64,000 nucleotides of DNA from Bacillaceae bacterium IKA-2 (GTDB taxonomy: Bacteria; Bacillota; Bacilli; Bacillales; Anaerobacillaceae): NCBI GenBank assembly GCA_031761875.1, contig CP134492.1, positions 4,092,001 to 4,156,000 on the forward strand, in the 5' to 3' direction. Positions 9,215-29,896 of this stretch are shown here, one piece after another. The number at the start of each line of letters is the position of its first letter. Positions within the stretch are counted from its first letter, which is position 1. The notes under the pieces are model-generated. The model did not search any database. It saw nothing but the letters and a program-made list of their open reading frames with translations, and was not told the origin of the DNA. The position numbers and the translations under genes are program-made.

Positions 9215-12200
9215 TCATTTATTAGGTGGGAAATTTTCTCGACAAATGCCGGACTGGCACCCGAAGTTCTTGAATTTATCAATAGCCGCAGCTTGTGGTG
9301 GTAACAATACTTGTTTTTTACCTTTTGCCACTGGAACTGCAATCTTGCCTTTACCTGCTTGTGGATTGTTCACAACATTGTCTTCAGGCGGCGTTGGATC
9401 TGTCGGATCTGTTGGATCTGGATCTACCGGATCTGGTACAACCGGATCTTCTGGTGATCCGTCTTCAACTAAACGAACATCAACAATTCTTTCATCAAGA
9501 GCTTTAAATACAAATACGTACTTTCCTGCCACAGCTGCAGTAAAGCGAAGGTTATCACCTTCCATCCAAGCTCCATCTAAAATATATTTAAATTCAATTT
9601 CTCCTTCTACTAACTCAATTGGATTTGATTTCCATACTTTTTCTTCTGGATCATATGTTAATGGATCGTTTTCACCTTCCCAACTTAATGGTGCTTGACC
9701 ACGTAAGACAACTTGGTTGTACTTACGGTCTGCGTCAATAAGCTCATCTTCACGCTCTATGTTCCCGTTCGTAAACGCATAGATCGCAAAGCCATTTGCA
9801 GGGACTGTAATCGCAATTGTTCCATTTTCAGCTACAAAAACTTCATCTTCATTTAGAAGATTAGTTAACTCAATATCAGTTAAAGAAGCTTGATTATAGA
9901 CTTCTCCAACATCAATCGTTGTTTCAGCACCTTTGTTTACTACAACAAGTACTTGCTGATCATTGTTTTTACGATCAAACGCAAGAACATTTTGATTTGC
10001 TAGAAGTTCTGTATAAGAACCGTTAACTAAAACTTTATTTTCATTACGTAAAGCAATGATTTTTTTGTAATGAGCAAGAATTTCTAAGTTTTGCTCTTCT
10101 TCATTCCATGGCATCATTTCACGATACCAACGGTCTTTCCAGTCTGTATAATCATCGTGGTTTTCACTTTGAGACATTCCAACTTCTGTACCATAATAAA
10201 TAACTGGAGAACCTGGTAATGTGAACTGTGCAAATGAAGCTAGCTTCAATAACGCTTCATTCTCACCAACTTCATAGAAAAACCTTGGAACGTCATGGTT
10301 ATCTAAAAAAGAAGTCATAATGTATTCAGGATGATAGACTGCTTTATTCTGCTCGATCATTTTACTAATATTTTTCATACTTCCACCTTTGAACGTTCCT
10401 TTAAACGTATCGTGGAATCCGAAATCTAGGGCACCATCAAGCTTACCAGCGTAAGAATTGATTTTTGTACGATTATCCCATATTTCACCAAAAATATATT
10501 TGTCGTCACCCAACTGTTTCACTGTGTGACGGAAATCAACCCAGAAACTATTGCTCGGGCCTTTCGCATAGTCAAGACGGAAGCCATCGAAACCAACTTC
10601 CTCTAACCAGAAAGGAACAACTTCGTTCAACATATAATCGCGCGCTGCTGGGTAATCATTGTTAAATTGCGGTAAACTTTCAATTCCGTAGAAAGTTTCG
10701 TAACTCCCATCCTCATAGAATGTGTAATAATTATAGTACTCACTATCTACACCATTTTCTAAGGCATCTTGAAAAAATGGATGCTCGTTAGAAGTGTGGT
10801 TTGGAACGAAGTCATAAATGACTTTCATACCTTTAGCATGTGCTTTTGCAATTAACTCTTTTAATTCCTCAAGTTCTCCGAAGTTTTTATCAACTTCTAA
10901 GAAGTCTGCTGGATGGTATCCATGAGAATAAGGTCCTTCGAAAACTGGAGATAGCCATAATGTATTTACTCCTAAATTCTCTAGGTAATCTAGCTCTTGA
11001 ATAATCCCTGCAATGTCGCCACCCATCCAATCTTTTAACGCTTCTTCTAACGGAAGATCTGGTTTCACGTCATAGTTATTATCTTTGTTGCCGTCTTTAA
11101 AGCGATCTACAAAAATTTGATAAATCACTGCTTCCTTCGCCCAATTTGGTGATGTAAATGCATCAACATAATAAGCAAATTCTGTCGCTTCATCTGAAAC
11201 TACACTATTCGTATCTGCAAACTGAGATCCTTCACCAGCTTCATCCCAAACGTCTAGTTTGTATTTAACCGGAGTTTGATTTGCTTGTGCTGGAATATCT
11301 CCTTTTAAAACGGTAGTAGTAAGAGTGTTAACTTCTTCAGAAGAAACAACTTTTAGAGCTGCTACTTCACCATTATCGGCAATACCCCGAGCTCCAACTG
11401 GAGTTGTACCATCAGTTGTATAATAAACGCTACCATCCGTAATTGGTCCATAATGCTCGACTGTTACAGTAATAGTTACATCATCAGCCTTACTTGGAAT
11501 TAGTGGTTCATGTTTGAAGTTATGGTTAACATTTTTTGCAACTGGAATACCAGACCACTCTGTAACTGTGTCTTCATAAACCTTGCCACCTTCGACAAAC
11601 TCAGCAACACGAGCTTCAGTACGGACTTCACGGAACTTCTCGTCGCCTAGTCCATAAAAATAGCTTAGTTTCGCACCAGCAGTGCCGGAAAGGTTAAGTT
11701 GGTAAGTTCCCGCACCTACTTTTATCATCGAAGTTACCGAAAAATTATATGAATTTAAGTTAGAAGCAACTGTCGGGATTACCCAATCCGGAGTTCCTTC
11801 TGGCACTTCTAATTGTAATGTTAAAGAACCAGTAAATTCATCTGCTAAAAGAACAGACACTTTTCTCTCATTATCTGGGTCAAATACAAACTGATATTTG
11901 GCTGATTGGGCCGGAGTATATCTTAGATTTTCTCCATCCATCCACTCATTATCCATCACAAACTTAAATTCTACTTCTTTACCACCTGGTAACTGAATTG
12001 GATTGCTTTTCCAAACTCCCTCTTCACTAACGAAAGTTAATGGATTACTATCGCCATCCCAAGCTAAACCTGGTGCATTTCCTCGTAAAACAACTTTTTC
12101 ATAAACATTGACAGGCTCTGGTGCTCCTGGTTCTTCTGCTCCCGGACCTTCTACTTCATCAGCAGGATCAATTTTTACGACTACTGTTGTTAATGGCTCT

Positions 12201-15200
12201 AAAGTGACGTTTACATTTGTTAGTTCGAAACCTGACTGCTCAGAAACTTCATCAGTTCCAGCTTCGTCACTATCAACGAGAACGATCCCTTTAGTTAAGT
12301 CTTTTTGCAGTGTAAGTGTTCTTTCTTTTGTATCAGCATTAATAAAAACAAAGTAAACATCACCATTTGTTGCTACGTTACGGTAGGCAACGACTAAGTC
12401 ATTGGTTTTTATCTCAGCTGCTTTTACTAATGTTATATTAGCATCAACTAAATCTTTATCTCCTAATCTAAAAGCATCTGTTGATTTTCTTAATTCAATT
12501 AGACCTTCCGTATACTCTCTTGTAACATTGTTAATTGGAAACTTTTCTGCATTTGTTGCTTTTGTCCAATCAAATCTATTAATAATGTCTGAAGAATCAT
12601 ACGAGTCATGAATAAAATATGGGTGCGTAAACGGATTACCGTTTGTATCTTCCATGAAAGTTGACTTATATGGTGCAGTCGTTGCATCTGCTCTCCACTG
12701 TTTTGTACGTCCGAACTCTTGACCAGCATGGATAAATGCTGTACCTTGAGCTGTTAAAACCATTGCATTTCCTATTCTAATCCGTTTGTGAATTTCTAAA
12801 TCATTTTCAGGTAATTCAGGATCTTTTTTAATCGATTGCGCAATGACATCATATAATGTTAAGTTATCATGAGCTTCGATATATGGTACAACGTCACCTG
12901 GTTGATCTGCCACGAAATTACGTGGTTGAGCCTTAATGTTTTCAAAAATTTGTTGAACACTTCTTGCTCCGCCAGTAATAAATCTTGGTTGACCTTCACT
13001 ACCAAAACCAGATTTTAACTCATTTCTAAATTCATCAGAGAAACTACCAACAGCTTCTGTGTACTGCATCCAGTCTTGGTCAGCTGCTTGAACAGGCTCA
13101 CCTTCGTCACCGGCAAACGTTCTCCACCCTTCACCAATCATGAGGATATTCGGGTTTAATTCTTTCGCCTTGTCAAAAGCGATTTGAATACTTTCGGCAT
13201 CATGGTCTCCCATCATATCAAAACGGAAGCCATCAACTTTATACTCATCTACCCAATGAAGGATTGAATCGACAAGAATTCTTCTTGCCATTTCGTGAGT
13301 TGTGCCTAGACGCCCACCACCAAAGCTTGTTCTTGGTGTGCCGTCTGCATCCATGAAATGGTAATAGTTGGGAACAAGGTCTTCGAAGATCCCGACTCTT
13401 GCTGTATGGTTATAAACTACATCAAGTAAGACTCCCATATCACGGTTATGAATTTCAGCAATTAGTTTTTTAAATTCTGCCACTCTTAATTCAGGATCAC
13501 TTGGATTTTCTGAGTACATACCTGAAAGTGAGAAATAACTGTGTGGATCATAACCCCAGTTATAATTTGTTTGTGTGGAAGCGTATTCTAGCATTCTTTC
13601 AGCATTTTTTAACTCATCCCCGAAAAAATAACTCATCACGGGTAAAAGTTGGACATGAGTTACACCTAAGTCTTGAATGTAATCTAATTTTTCTACGAAA
13701 GCTGCGAATGTTCCAAATTGCGCTGTTAATTCTTCTCCAATAGTTTCATCTGAAGTAAAATCACGAACGTGAACTTCGTAAATAATCGCATCTTCTCGTT
13801 TTTCAAAGCCCGGAATCGTAGCAAAATCTAATTCAGGACCAATTGTAGATAGGTCAACAATTGCTGCTTTTCCGTATGGATAGTCTTTTCCAGCAAATTC
13901 ATGACTCCAAGCGGCCATTGATTTTGCATAAGGGTCAAGCGCTAATTTCGTCTCTTCACCATGCGTAATTGCATAATGATAGAAGTAGCCTCTTAAACTA
14001 TCAAGCTCTGTATTAGCAACGTCTAAAGTTACTGACCAAACACCACGATCGCCTAATTCCATCGGAATTTCAGAAACCACTTTATTTTGATCTACTTTGT
14101 CATATAAAACGACAGCTACATCGTCAGCTTTTGGAGACCATACTTTCAATGTCGCCGTGCCATCTTCATGTAACGTCGCACCTAGTTTGCCATCATAAGC
14201 ATAAAGCTCATCAATCATTTTCCATCCAGCACTTGCTGTGACAACTTTTTCTTGATACGTTACGCTGTAAGGACCCATCTCTAGATCGAAATTGCCAGTA
14301 AGTTCGACAGTCGTACCATTTTTTATTGTTGCTGCTGCTACTTGTACTTCGTCACCTGCTACATCTTTCACTGTAATAACTTTTAGAAGCTCTTCCTCTG
14401 ATAAGCCTTCTGTTTTTGAAAATTTAAGTTCAATTTTCGTATCAGAAAGCAGTTCCGCAGAAATAAGCGCTACAGGAATTGAGCCGTATGGATTTGTATA
14501 GCCGGTTGTATCACCATCTTTCACAAAAATATGTTGATAGTCAGCTAACATCTCAAACTTTATATCACTAGTTTGGCCATCGCCTTTTTTATTTACAAAA
14601 AGGAAACCCATTGACTTTGCATCTTCTTTTAATTCAATATCATAATAAGCACCGTGCTTACCAACACCTGAAAGGTCTGTAGCGCCATCGGGCCAACTAG
14701 CAACAGCCCCTGATTCAGTTGCGACATCGCCCCAAACCCACGCTGCCCAGTTTTCATAGTCCCCAGCGTCTCTTTCATAATGGATTCGCACTGTGTTTTC
14801 AGGAAGGTCTACCGGCTCCCATAAAAATACTTGATCTGAACCTTGTTTAATCCAAATCTCATTGATTTCTGGAGAAAAAAGCTCAACTCTTTTATCATCT
14901 CCGTCTTTATCTCCATTTGTTACATTTAAGACTAAGAAACCAACTTTAGCAGCATCACTCTTTAATTCAAGATCAAGATATGCTCCATAATCAGTTAGTT
15001 CCTCGCTAAAAGGAATTCCTCCAGTCGGCCAGTTCTCTGTAGGAGATGCTACATCGTCCCACGTCCAAACACCGAGGTTTGCATAGTCATTATCAGTTCT
15101 TTGATAGTGAATTCTTAGTGTATTCTCAGCGATTTCACTAACATTTTCTTCGACATCACTTACAGTTCCTTCTGCCGCTACTACTGGTATGTAGCTAGTA

Positions 15201-15268
15201 AACACTGAGAAAACCATAATAAGGGCTAACCAAAATGATAGTGCTTTTTGATACTTTTTCCTCATCAT
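9215..15268 (-). CDS. Secreted amylopullulanase with two GH13 catalytic domains
   Basis: 2017 residues. A signal peptide (about 1-32) is followed by two pullulanase-associated starch-binding repeats (about 50-155 and 160-260), a CBM48-like domain (about 355-450), and a type I pullulanase GH13 domain with YNWGYDP, GFRFDMMGDHD (nucleophile Asp), MIGEGW (acid/base Glu) and EAHDN. Then come an X25-type module (about 1060-1150, VVLRGNAPGLAWDGD), a linker, and a second GH13 domain of the alpha-amylase/neopullulanase type (about 1385-1830; DFVPNHTS, GFRLDYAKG, FGEIWDN, FLDNHD). A second X25-type module, a Pro/Asp/Thr linker and a short basic tail follow. Both active sites look complete, so one chain should cut alpha-1,6 and alpha-1,4 bonds of starch or pullulan. 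No sortase or SLH anchor is seen. Operators upstream suggest sugar control. Confidence 0.95.
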   Translation of the reverse strand: MMRKKYQKALSFWLALIMVFSVFTSYIPVVAAEGTVSDVEENVSEIAENTLRIHYQRTDNDYANLGVWTWDDVASPTENWPTGGIPFSEELTDYGAYLDLELKSDAAKVGFLVLNVTNGDKDGDDKRVELFSPEINEIWIKQGSDQVFLWEPVDLPENTVRIHYERDAGDYENWAAWVWGDVATESGAVASWPDGATDLSGVGKHGAYYDIELKEDAKSMGFLFVNKKGDGQTSDIKFEMLADYQHIFVKDGDTTGYTNPYGSIPVALISAELLSDTKIELKFSKTEGLSEEELLKVITVKDVAGDEVQVAAATIKNGTTVELTGNFDLEMGPYSVTYQEKVVTASAGWKMIDELYAYDGKLGATLHEDGTATLKVWSPKADDVAVVLYDKVDQNKVVSEIPMELGDRGVWSVTLDVANTELDSLRGYFYHYAITHGEETKLALDPYAKSMAAWSHEFAGKDYPYGKAAIVDLSTIGPELDFATIPGFEKREDAIIYEVHVRDFTSDETIGEELTAQFGTFAAFVEKLDYIQDLGVTHVQLLPVMSYFFGDELKNAERMLEYASTQTNYNWGYDPHSYFSLSGMYSENPSDPELRVAEFKKLIAEIHNRDMGVLLDVVYNHTARVGIFEDLVPNYYHFMDADGTPRTSFGGGRLGTTHEMARRILVDSILHWVDEYKVDGFRFDMMGDHDAESIQIAFDKAKELNPNILMIGEGWRTFAGDEGEPVQAADQDWMQYTEAVGSFSDEFRNELKSGFGSEGQPRFITGGARSVQQIFENIKAQPRNFVADQPGDVVPYIEAHDNLTLYDVIAQSIKKDPELPENDLEIHKRIRIGNAMVLTAQGTAFIHAGQEFGRTKQWRADATTAPYKSTFMEDTNGNPFTHPYFIHDSYDSSDIINRFDWTKATNAEKFPINNVTREYTEGLIELRKSTDAFRLGDKDLVDANITLVKAAEIKTNDLVVAYRNVATNGDVYFVFINADTKERTLTLQKDLTKGIVLVDSDEAGTDEVSEQSGFELTNVNVTLEPLTTVVVKIDPADEVEGPGAEEPGAPEPVNVYEKVVLRGNAPGLAWDGDSNPLTFVSEEGVWKSNPIQLPGGKEVEFKFVMDNEWMDGENLRYTPAQSAKYQFVFDPDNERKVSVLLADEFTGSLTLQLEVPEGTPDWVIPTVASNLNSYNFSVTSMIKVGAGTYQLNLSGTAGAKLSYFYGLGDEKFREVRTEARVAEFVEGGKVYEDTVTEWSGIPVAKNVNHNFKHEPLIPSKADDVTITVTVEHYGPITDGSVYYTTDGTTPVGARGIADNGEVAALKVVSSEEVNTLTTTVLKGDIPAQANQTPVKYKLDVWDEAGEGSQFADTNSVVSDEATEFAYYVDAFTSPNWAKEAVIYQIFVDRFKDGNKDNNYDVKPDLPLEEALKDWMGGDIAGIIQELDYLENLGVNTLWLSPVFEGPYSHGYHPADFLEVDKNFGELEELKELIAKAHAKGMKVIYDFVPNHTSNEHPFFQDALENGVDSEYYNYYTFYEDGSYETFYGIESLPQFNNDYPAARDYMLNEVVPFWLEEVGFDGFRLDYAKGPSNSFWVDFRHTVKQLGDDKYIFGEIWDNRTKINSYAGKLDGALDFGFHDTFKGTFKGGSMKNISKMIEQNKAVYHPEYIMTSFLDNHDVPRFFYEVGENEALLKLASFAQFTLPGSPVIYYGTEVGMSQSENHDDYTDWKDRWYREMMPWNEEEQNLEILAHYKKIIALRNENKVLVNGSYTELLANQNVLAFDRKNNDQQVLVVVNKGAETTIDVGEVYNQASLTDIELTNLLNEDEVFVAENGTIAITVPANGFAIYAFTNGNIEREDELIDADRKYNQVVLRGQAPLSWEGENDPLTYDPEEKVWKSNPIELVEGEIEFKYILDGAWMEGDNLRFTAAVAGKYVFVFKALDERIVDVRLVEDGSPEDPVVPDPVDPDPTDPTDPTPPEDNVVNNPQAGKGKIAVPVAKGKKQVLLPPQAAAIDKFKNFGCQSGICRENFPPNK

Positions 15269-23514: not shown

Positions 23515-23765
23515 GGGGACAGGCACCTTTTCCCAGTATTTAAAAGTATTCGCAAGTAAACAGGGTAAAATTGGTGATAAGCCAAGTTATCCAAAGAAGT
23601 TAACGCTGTTTGAAAAAATGGACAACATGAATTTAGCGATACATAACATAGCAAGCAGCTTCACGAGAATCACATCCCCGTTATACAGATGACGAGCTTG
23701 CTTCGCCACTCTCTACCTAGCACCGATTCCGATCCACTCAACTTTGGGAAAAGGGACCTGTCCCC
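23515..23765. repeat. MITE-like REP-ended element, 251 bp, upstream of ncRNA copy 1
   Basis: The left end is GGGGACAGGCACCTTTTCCCAG followed by TATTTAAAAGTATTCGCAAG. The right end is GCACCGATTCCGATCCACTC, then TGGGAAAAGGGACCTGTCCCC. The interior contains ATGAATTTAGCGATACATAA, aligning with the coding start in the 418-bp elements at 36.3 and 44.9 kb. An extra REP scrap (GGGGACAGGTGG) precedes it at 23498. Confidence 0.85.
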
Positions 23766-23805: not shown

Positions 23806-23834
23806 TAGACTTACCAATATGTATCTGTTATAAT
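23806..23834 (+). promoter_or_regulatory. Sigma-A promoter of ncRNA copy 1
   Basis: TAGACT, 17-base spacer, TATAAT. The start point should fall near 23841. The same two hexamers and spacing occur before copy 2. Confidence 0.85.
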
Positions 23835-23840
23835 AAATAC

Positions 23841-24417
23841 AAGGAAAGAAAATCACTTATCACTCTAGGTGACTCAGTCAATCCTTCGTCAGTTTCCTTG
23901 AAAGCGCTTATCTGTAAGTAGCGAAACAGGAATTACAAATGCTTTATCTTGTAGCCTGTTAGTAAACTCTATAGTAAGCACGTTTACTAGGTAACTTAGA
24001 CGCATTTCACTTACACTAACATAATTTTGAAGTGAAGTGAATGCAAAAAATGCACAACCAACCAATAGCGATGTAATTTTTCTAACAGTAAGGAAAAGCT
24101 TTAGTGTAGTTGTATTAAAGGAATTTGGGGCGAAGTCTTTAAGACAATCGCAAAACAATCGTAACTTTATACGCTATTCTATAATTCTAAGGCTAACTGA
24201 AAGGAAAGTTCACTCGTAATAAGGTATCAAGCTTAATTAAAAATATCTAGTAACACATTTAGGAAACAACAAACATCATATCATTCGTTTAATTAATTTA
24301 GCGTTGAAATGACCAAGTTGGTTTAGTTTTCTAAAAAGATGTGATGGAAGGTATGGTTGGGTCACCTAGAGTGATAAGCCCCTCTTGCAATTTTAGCATG
24401 AGGGGCTTATTTTTTTT
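23841..24417 (+). ncRNA. Large structured RNA, about 577 nt, copy 1
   Basis: The stretch has no credible protein reading. It starts just after a sigma-A promoter and ends in a strong terminator (GCCCCTC/GAGGGGC then eight T). The 5' segment TTATCACTCTAGGTGAC (23858-23874) is perfectly complementary to GTCACCTAGAGTGATAA (24361-24377), closing the whole RNA in a 17-bp stem. Copy 2 at 29.3 kb keeps these parts and long internal blocks (for example GACTCAGTCAATCCTTCG, TTTCTAACAGTAAGG, AGGAAACAACAAACATCATA) while other segments differ in sequence and length, the pattern of a conserved fold. Size is like ROOL (about 580 nt) or OLE (about 610 nt); I cannot assign it to either by eye. Confidence 0.8.
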
Positions 24418-24672
24418 GGGAAAAGGGGACAGGCACCTTTTCCCAGTATTTAAAAGTATTCGTAAGCAAACTGGGGTAAAATTGCGATAAACCAAGTGAT
24501 TCAAAGAGGTTAACGCTGTTTGAAAAAATGGGCAACATGAATTGAGTATAAATGCTAACATAGTAAGCAGCTAGACGAGAACCACACCCCTTTTATATAT
24601 CGAGCTTGCTTCACCGCTATCCCTAGCACTGCTATCCGATCCACTCAACTTTGGGAAAAGGAACCTGTCCCC
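24418..24672. repeat. MITE-like REP-ended element, 255 bp, downstream of ncRNA copy 1
   Basis: Begins directly at the end of the ncRNA terminator T-run with GGGAAAAGGGGACAGGCACC and ends TTGGGAAAAGGAACCTGTCCCC. The interior is clearly homologous to the 23.5-kb element (GTATTTAAAAGTATTCGTAAG, GTTAACGCTGTTTGAAAAAA, ATCCGATCCACTCAACTT). Confidence 0.87.
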
Positions 24673-25850: not shown

Positions 25851-26081
25851 ATGAATTTAAAATTTATTGGTGGAGTCCTTTTATTAATAGGTATTGGTTC
25901 CTTTATTTTTGGCTTTATTGAATATAATTCAACGGCTGCTGAACTTTCACGAACTCAGTTAGGGCAACTTTCTTCTCAGTTTGTTGATTTAGGTCACGAC
26001 TCTACCCTAGCATATGGTGGAATGGGCCTGGGTTCATTATTAAGTTTAATAGGCCTTGGTTTTCTAACAAAGAAAAAGTAG
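25851..26081 (+). CDS. Small two-helix membrane protein
   Basis: 76 residues: a Gly/Ile-rich helix (about 5-24), a polar middle with FVDLGHDSTLAYGG, and a second helix (about 54-72) ending TKKK. AAAGGAG precedes the ATG. The layout recalls DUF3185-type small membrane proteins, but I am not sure of the family. Its transcription probably ends at the ncRNA-derived hairpin 40 bases downstream. Confidence 0.65.
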   Translation: MNLKFIGGVLLLIGIGSFIFGFIEYNSTAAELSRTQLGQLSSQFVDLGHDSTLAYGGMGLGSLLSLIGLGFLTKKK

Positions 26082-26121
26082 AAAAATAAAGAATTTATTA
26101 CTCGTATGATTTATTGATTGG

Positions 26122-26174
26122 GTCACCTAGAATGATAACCCCCCTCTTGCGATTTTTAGCTTGAGGGGGGTTTC
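26122..26174 (+). ncRNA. 3' remnant of the large ncRNA, acting as a terminator
   Basis: GTCACCTAGAATGATAA is 16 of 17 identical to the 3' closing strand of the full ncRNAs. It is followed by the same CCCCTCTTGCGA-loop-TTGAGGGG hairpin. Nothing upstream matches the rest of the RNA, so only the tail survives. It lies 40 bases after the small membrane protein gene and would terminate that transcript. Confidence 0.8.
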
Positions 26175-29283: not shown

Positions 29284-29312
29284 TAGACTTCTATAAATGT
29301 ATCTGCTATAAT
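29284..29312 (+). promoter_or_regulatory. Sigma-A promoter of ncRNA copy 2
   Basis: TAGACT, 17 bases, TATAAT; the spacer also shares ATGTATCTG with copy 1. Confidence 0.85.
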
Positions 29313-29318
29313 AAAAAC

Positions 29319-29896
29319 AAGGAAAGAAAATCACTTATCACTCTAGGTGACTCAGTCAATCCTTCGGCGGTTTCCTTGAAAGCGCTTACCATTAAGTGAG
29401 CTAAACAGGAATTGCAAATGCTCTTGATCTTGCAGCCTGTAATAAACTCTAAAGTAAGCACTATTACTAGGTGCCTTGGAAGCATTTCGCTTACACTATA
29501 GTAATCTTAAAGTGGAGTGAATGCAAAAACACACAGTTAAGAAGCGTTGTAGTTTTTCTAACAGTAAGGTAAAGGTTTAGTGTAGATGTGCTAAAGGGAT
29601 TTGTGGCGAAGTCTTAAGCCAAAAGACAAACGCAAAACAATCGTAACTTTTAACACTATTCTAAATTCTAAAGCTCATTGAAAGGAAAGTTTACTCGTAA
29701 AAAGGTGTCAAGCTTAAAAATATCTAGTAACGAACTTAGGAAACAACAAACATCATATCATTCGTTGGATTATTTTATTAATAAAGCGTTGAAATGACTA
29801 AGTTGGTTTAGTTTTCTAAAAGATGTGATGGAAGGTATGGTTGGGTCACCTAGAGTGATAAACCCCTCTTGCGATTATCGCTTGAGGGGTTTTTTC
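29319..29896 (+). ncRNA. Large structured RNA, about 578 nt, copy 2
   Basis: Same architecture as copy 1: the closing helix is TTATCACTCTAGGTGAC (29335-29351) with GTCACCTAGAGTGATAA (29845-29861), followed by the terminator ACCCCTC/GAGGGGT and T-run. Length is within a base or two of copy 1, although several internal segments have insertions and deletions that balance out. A hairpin region near 29390 changes sequence (TATCTGTAAGTAGC in copy 1, ACCATTAAGTGAGC here). Several putative stems carry paired changes. No protein reading is conserved between the copies. Function unknown. Confidence 0.8.

Follow-up and report, generated by a model that had tools for sequence, protein, structure and literature searches.

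A putative new family of large, free-standing structured RNA with two copies in one Bacillaceae genome

Few large structured RNAs without a known function have been described in bacteria (OLE, ROOL, GOLLD, raiA), and each of them poses the question of which tasks RNA retains that protein has not taken over. The window, i.e. the whole 64,000-nucleotide stretch of DNA analysed here, contains two similar stretches (W1 and W2) that were read in an earlier note as a structured RNA, belonging either to the ROOL/OLE size class or to a new family. The question is which of the two it is, how the RNA is built and what it might do. As far as sequence analysis can tell, W1 and W2 belong to a new family of free-standing large structured RNA that is absent from the Rfam catalogue searched.

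Layout of the two copies

W1 and W2 display 84% identity across about 610 bp (E 2.9e-190), in line with the likeness first noticed between them. According to genome searches, they are the only full copies in the window genome, which carries one fragment in addition. The elements of the two copies are:

23806-23834, + strand: W1 promoter, TAGACT (23806-23811), a 17-nt spacer and TATAAT (23829-23834), with an extended -10 TGn
about 23841-24416, + strand: W1 RNA, the first copy, with homologues in many genera
23857-23880, + strand: W1 P1 5' strand, TTATCACTCTAGGTGACTCAGTCA, covariation in the family
23892-23898, + strand: W1 P2 5' strand, GTTTCCT, which can alternatively form a local hairpin (P2a) with GAAA at 23900-23903
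24261-24267, + strand: W1 P2 3' strand, AGGAAAC, supported in the family against a tree null
24274-24281, + strand: W1 P3 5' strand, CATCATAT, supported in the family by partner swaps
24339-24346, + strand: W1 P3 3' strand, ATGTGATG, likewise supported by partner swaps
24354-24377, + strand: W1 P1 3' strand, TGGTTGGGTCACCTAGAGTGATAA, covariation in the family
about 24378-24418, + strand: W1 intrinsic terminator, GCCCCTC...GAGGGGC and a T tract
29284-29312, + strand: W2 promoter, TAGACT (29284-29289), 17 nt and TATAAT (29307-29312)
about 29319-29896, + strand: W2 RNA, the second copy
29335-29358, + strand: W2 P1 5' strand
29370-29376, + strand: W2 P2 5' strand, GTTTCCT
29738-29744, + strand: W2 P2 3' strand, AGGAAAC
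29751-29758, + strand: W2 P3 5' strand, CATCATAT
29823-29830, + strand: W2 P3 3' strand, ATGTGATG
29838-29861, + strand: W2 P1 3' strand
29862-29896, + strand: W2 intrinsic terminator

The 5' start of W1 is inferred to lie ~7 nt past the -10 box. The promoter said to be common to the two stretches is present at both sites, and each copy ends, as proposed, in an intrinsic terminator (24378-24416 and 29862-29896). The perfect 17-bp pairing of the two ends (TTATCACTCTAGGTGAC with GTCACCTAGAGTGATAA) is also seen in both copies, and G-U pairs extend it to a 24-bp helix (P1), of which the perfect 17 bp are the outer part. P2 is short in the window copies (only about 7 bp). The lengths of the copies had been described as equal within a base or two, which is true of the whole promoter-to-terminator unit only (612 nt in W1 and 613 nt in W2), since the distance from P1 to its 3' partner, P1', is 521 nt in W1 and 527 nt in W2. 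Compared to dinucleotide shuffles, the P1-to-P1' region folds more stably, with z = -8.8 (W1) and -5.5 (W2), and the interior without P1 with z = -3.9 and -2.0, respectively. The longest sense open reading frames, 60 residues in W1 and 39 residues in W2, are unrelated, and the copies have no common protein frame, as had been claimed.

Homologues and distribution

One copy, identifiable from both of its ends, occurs in each of three other species of the window genus. Further genera of the order were reached with R1, a covariance model built on the 3' domain, and every real match of R1 had a matching 5' element upstream. Several matches of this model under about 27 bits are due to chance, yet some at such a score are real. 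When named genomes were scanned with an exact pattern, 76 contig stretches were recovered, which represent at least 16 named genera. With one exception, their titles are those of Bacillaceae or relatives and include Neobacillus, Mesobacillus, Salipaludibacillus, Evansella, Texcoconibacillus, Aquibacillus, Oceanobacillus, Pontibacillus, Schinkia, Heyndrickxia, Caldibacillus, Robertmurraya, Cytobacillus, Halalkalibacter, Litchfieldia and Alkalihalobacterium. In 11 of the 76 stretches, no P1 partner is found by the criterion used, which reflects contig or locus edges or divergence. The contig JAGGRA010000028.1 (L127) is titled Pseudomonas sp. ISL-84 and is probably mislabelled, because its copy nearly matches that of Cytobacillus oceanisediminis (L104).

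A model of the 5' domain (R3) finds the RNA in 66 of 397 sampled Bacillales genomes (about 17%) and in 28 of 135 genera of the order. Five of 399 genomes in the sample of the class are matched, two of them in a family outside the order, and the window genome is the sole match in the sample of the phylum. At the sensitivities used, no homologue was found in viral contigs (searched with two patterns) or in phages and plasmids (searched by distant BLAST). The patchy distribution implies that the RNA is not essential.

Some genomes hold two or three copies. Two genomes of one genus (G267 and G329; possibly Halobacillus-like, a guess from gene content) have three tandem copies of a shorter form (362-401 nt) inside about 2.4 kb (L171 and L172). 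Short homologues (322-376 nt; L175-L178) occur in two genomes of the family outside the order, and in several of these the inner part of P1 is fully Watson-Crick (GAGGCUCAACCA with UGGUUGAGCCUC).

Transcription unit of the family

Removal of near-duplicates leaves a family set of 71 RNAs. TGnTATAAT, with no more than a single hexamer mismatch allowed, is found upstream of 57 of them (3.7 expected from shuffles), and a terminator hairpin with a T tract follows 64 (vs 0 of 40 shuffled sequences). T6 runs, a possible cause of early termination, are depleted within the RNAs (8 vs 53). No cluster of similar sense open reading frames spans more than 8 of the 71 RNAs, which extends the absence of a shared frame to the family. 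With its own promoter and terminator, a conserved structure that covaries and no open reading frame, the family meets the general criterion for a large free-standing structured non-coding RNA.

Conserved helices and covariation

In the P1 helix of the family, TTAACATCTTAGGAGRCTCAACCA pairs with TGGTTGGGTCnCCTAAGATGTTAA. The outer ten pairs show compensated variation, and the inner half, which contains conserved G-U pairs and commonly an A.C mismatch at position 14, is nearly invariant in the 71 RNAs. P2 is a long-range helix of GUUnGUUCCGU with ACGGAACnAAC, in which the 3' partner is usually located about 120 nt from the 3' end. The partner is about 175 nt from the 3' end in a Schinkia-like group, where it reads GCGGAGCUAAU. 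P2 of the window genus is GUUUCC with GGAAAC, where a base added to one strand has its counterpart in the other. A 3' hairpin domain is closed by P3, which occurs as CAUCRGC/GCUGAUG, CAUCAUAU/AUAUGAUG, CUUUUC/GAAAAG and other variants. A local hairpin (UCGUUC/GAACGA, UUGGUU/AACCAA or GGUUUC/GAAACC) is built with the 5' strand of P2 and therefore cannot coexist with that helix.

The earlier note called the RNA ornate. This description holds for P1, P2, P3 and the competing local hairpin, which are found family-wide, but not for the central several hundred nucleotides, which vary strongly between genera and can be aligned only inside genera. The length of the core is highly variable as well, with P1-to-P1' distances of 293-829 nt in the non-redundant set and 217 nt in one candidate.

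A lack of covariation among homologues and a conserved protein frame had been named as outcomes that would refute a structured RNA. No conserved frame exists, and covariation is present. In a tree null, where the substitutions of each column were redistributed across the tree of RNAs (300 replicates), no replicate reached the observed values for base pairs 1-10 of P1: their paired fraction of cells is 0.948 (null mean 0.717, maximum 0.865), and they have 80 double-changed cells (null maximum 50) and 26 extra pair types (null maximum 19; 0/300 on each measure). P1 has 21 compensatory double substitutions on the same branch. Its partners were admitted only with at least 20 of 24 pairs, but this selection for pairing is mild, as the null mean itself is about 20.4 of 24. 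The paired fraction of P2 (0.752) exceeds all 300 nulls (maximum 0.749), but P2 is less clear on the other two measures (27 and 2 of 300); it has 6 double substitutions. Swapping partner strands between RNAs lowers the helix scores of P2 (z 5.7), the local hairpin (z 8.7) and P3 (z 6.9).

The check proposed for the RNA was a covariance model followed by R-scape. Homologues and covariation at the level of helices were obtained, but in an R-scape-like column-pair G-test with APC no single pair had E<0.05. The best P1 pairs in this test have E of 0.3-0.7, and the P2 register is off by one. Since no individual pair is significant, support for covariation is confined to the helix level, where comparison of the aligned RNAs supports covariation of P1 and also backs P2, P3 and the hairpin predicted to compete with P2.

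Genomic context

The names given here to the recurring neighbours are a reading of their sequences and do not come from family searches. Neighbours recur inside genera and differ between genera. They include a YitT-like membrane protein and an erythromycin-esterase-like gene in Neobacillus, a PepF-like peptidase in Robertmurraya and Cytobacillus and, in one genome, an rRNA operon. In the window genus, the neighbour is an ABC-F ATPase, and three congeners use this site. The same site is empty of the RNA in the window genome, where both copies are located elsewhere, in surroundings of DUF975, glucoamylase-like and glyoxalase genes. The variation of neighbours by genus, the empty ABC-F site and the relocation of the two copies argue for action in trans. 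The intergenic position of the RNA could also be that of a cis-regulatory leader, a riboswitch or the 3' UTR of a neighbouring gene, but such a role is largely refuted and retains only a very slight probability: the RNA has its own terminator (64/71), the gene that follows it is not the same from genus to genus and may be convergent, the RNA gene has been relocated, and a conserved downstream gene in one transcript, the criterion for such elements, is not found.

The window contains a remnant of a third copy, which the earlier note overlooked:

26115-26171, + strand: truncated third copy, consisting of the 3' P1 strand (26115-26138) and the terminator only

It is positioned just downstream of a small open reading frame of 76 residues (25851-26082), which is hydrophobic by eye and has no match in Pfam. 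W1, W2 and the truncated copy are flanked by REP-like GGGACAGGnnCCTTTTCCC repeats, often in inverted pairs, of which there are 28 in the 64-kb window (0.03 expected) at sites from 2723 to 45310. A roughly 250-bp unit is repeated at about 23515-23765 and 24425-24672. The window also contains a single open reading frame of 2017 residues (9215-15268, - strand) and no tRNA genes or tmRNA.

The company of these 28 repeats, the inverted ends of the RNA and the change of gene location within the genus raise the possibility of a selfish or mobile non-coding element, which would be MITE-like, spread by REP or IS machinery, and would use the ends as recognition sites. This is improbable. The genome has just two full copies, and the conserved promoter and terminator lie outside the ends. 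The ends covary as RNA helices and contain G-U pairs, with strand-specific inner sequence. Moreover, no transposase was noticed among the recurrent neighbours, and the element is absent from the phage, plasmid and viral sets searched.

Possible function

The explanation that accounts best for the locus, and which is considered probable though far from assured, is that W1 and W2 are paralogous genes of a new Bacillaceae family of trans-acting large structured non-coding RNA, which would become a stable scaffold after refolding at its 3' end; both expression and function are inferred. The function favoured, though unproven and without expression, probing or binding data, is that of a stable RNP or RNA scaffold which acts in trans and refolds upon 3'-end synthesis.

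The proposed sequence of events begins with a discrete transcript of about 577 nt, which is inferred without RNA-seq. The local hairpin would form first, during transcription. When the 3' end emerges, P2 would replace this hairpin, and P2 and P1 together would capture the 5' end. Their closure would give one compact domain, in which P1 may protect or present the ends. The invariant inner part of P1 might be read by a protein or a tertiary contact, an inference for which there are no binding data. Once closed, the RNA would serve as a stable scaffold in trans, either within an RNP or in an assembly of RNA alone, like OLE, ROOL and GOLLD. That the RNA forms an undescribed Bacillaceae machine or assembly, with a switch between the local hairpin and P2 that closes the molecule at 3'-end synthesis, and that it does so alongside OLE in many genomes, is plausible and is put forward with slightly less than even confidence.

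Being free-standing, patchy and at times present in two or three copies, the RNA might instead be a trans-acting regulator that titrates a protein, e.g. a CsrA sponge, or pairs with mRNAs, its fold being a delivery or stability device. ANGGA motifs are indeed in excess (338 vs 236 expected in the 71 RNAs), but the conserved P2 strand ACGGAAC, for which pairing accounts, is probably the source of much of this excess, and the fuller CsrA loop motif CANGGANG is not enriched (7 vs 7.3). The sequences CCTCC and TCCC, which resemble an anti-SD, are depleted. It is the paired elements, and not the loops, that are most strongly conserved. The sponge and C-rich seed ideas are thus weak on motif counts, and a regulatory RNA of this sort is regarded as unlikely.

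The near invariance of the inner P1 strand in the 71 RNAs is open to one more interpretation. In W1, this strand (within 24354-24377), GGUUGGGUCnCCU, appears to resemble the 3' end of 16S rRNA (GGUUGGAUCACCU), although the resemblance may be a coincidence. A ribosome-linked RNA could compete through it for a factor that binds the 16S 3' end, e.g. Era or KsgA. However, the second A of GAUCAC is a variable position, and the first A is G in 71 of 71 RNAs. Moreover, the strand is buried in P1. A link to the ribosome is, on this evidence, quite improbable.

Carriers of the RNA include the cultured Neobacillus niacini and Caldibacillus thermoamylovorans, and its 71 non-redundant homologues suffice for structure probing, cryo-EM and a covariance model.

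Comparison with known RNAs

At gathering thresholds, no family of Rfam 15 matches the RNA in the window. In 20 homologous loci, only 5S and 23S rRNA and a separate BsrG are matched, and in 20 more diverse loci the RNA is again unmatched. Permissive scans gave chance matches only, e.g. PyrR with 25.6 bits via the terminator. GOLLD, raiA, 6S, SRP RNA, RNase P RNA, tmRNA and the other Rfam families all remain below gathering, although GOLLD was not scored individually. The search of both copies with the ROOL and OLE models that had been suggested for them yielded no match at gathering. The best ROOL (RF03087) score in the genome is 17 bits, a chance match at an unrelated site (gathering 99.1 bits). 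For OLE (RF01071), there is no match in the window at its gathering threshold of 50 bits, and the model of the new family finds nothing in OLE loci. The size and the paired ends of the RNA would suit a divergent ROOL, OLE or other catalogued RNA, but nothing at gathering in the window and in the 40 locus scans, no credible permissive match, a ROOL score that falls elsewhere and a separate OLE locus make such an origin highly improbable. Of the two branches offered initially, the new family is supported, and the Rfam thresholds rule out membership in either ROOL or OLE. By these searches, homology of the RNA to a known RNA family is not detectable, although its general kind, the large free-standing structured RNA, is already known.

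Searches by term in the main texts of the bacterial genome surveys of the Breaker laboratory (PMC6429828, PMC8632094, PMC11109978) found no such RNA. The other open papers that were searched gave no description of it either, with most subscription journals and bioRxiv outside the search.

ROOL is of similar size (574-position model) and is likewise intergenic. Unlike ROOL, to which it has no match above threshold, the new RNA has no viral or phage copies found, and there are no tRNA genes in the window. ROOL is a homo-oligomeric complex in solution (PMC12286853). GOLLD, too, is a large bacterial RNA of unknown function, but the new RNA has no Rfam match to it. The raiA motif or ModT RNA is a conserved structured RNA in Bacillota (PMC11706538), a description that the new RNA shares, again without an Rfam match.

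Similarities to OLE include the large size (about 600 nt), the absence of a protein frame and a wide distribution in Bacillales. OLE is found in 225 of 397 sampled Bacillales genomes and is present in the window genome as well (C1:1027721-1028330, L194, 493 bits), about 3.1 Mb away in contig coordinates. Mutual exclusion of the two RNAs can be rejected: OLE is present in 48 of the 66 carriers (vs 225 of 397 genomes overall), as counted from the tables. OLE differs in its near-constant length, as the matches listed span the full 616-position model, whereas the new RNA varies by several hundred nucleotides. It occupies a separate locus and shows neither a sequence nor a covariance match to the new RNA. 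The binding partners of OLE are known, and it forms a membrane RNP with OLE-associated proteins. Genomes that carry both OLE and the new RNA permit a comparison of two large RNAs within one cell.
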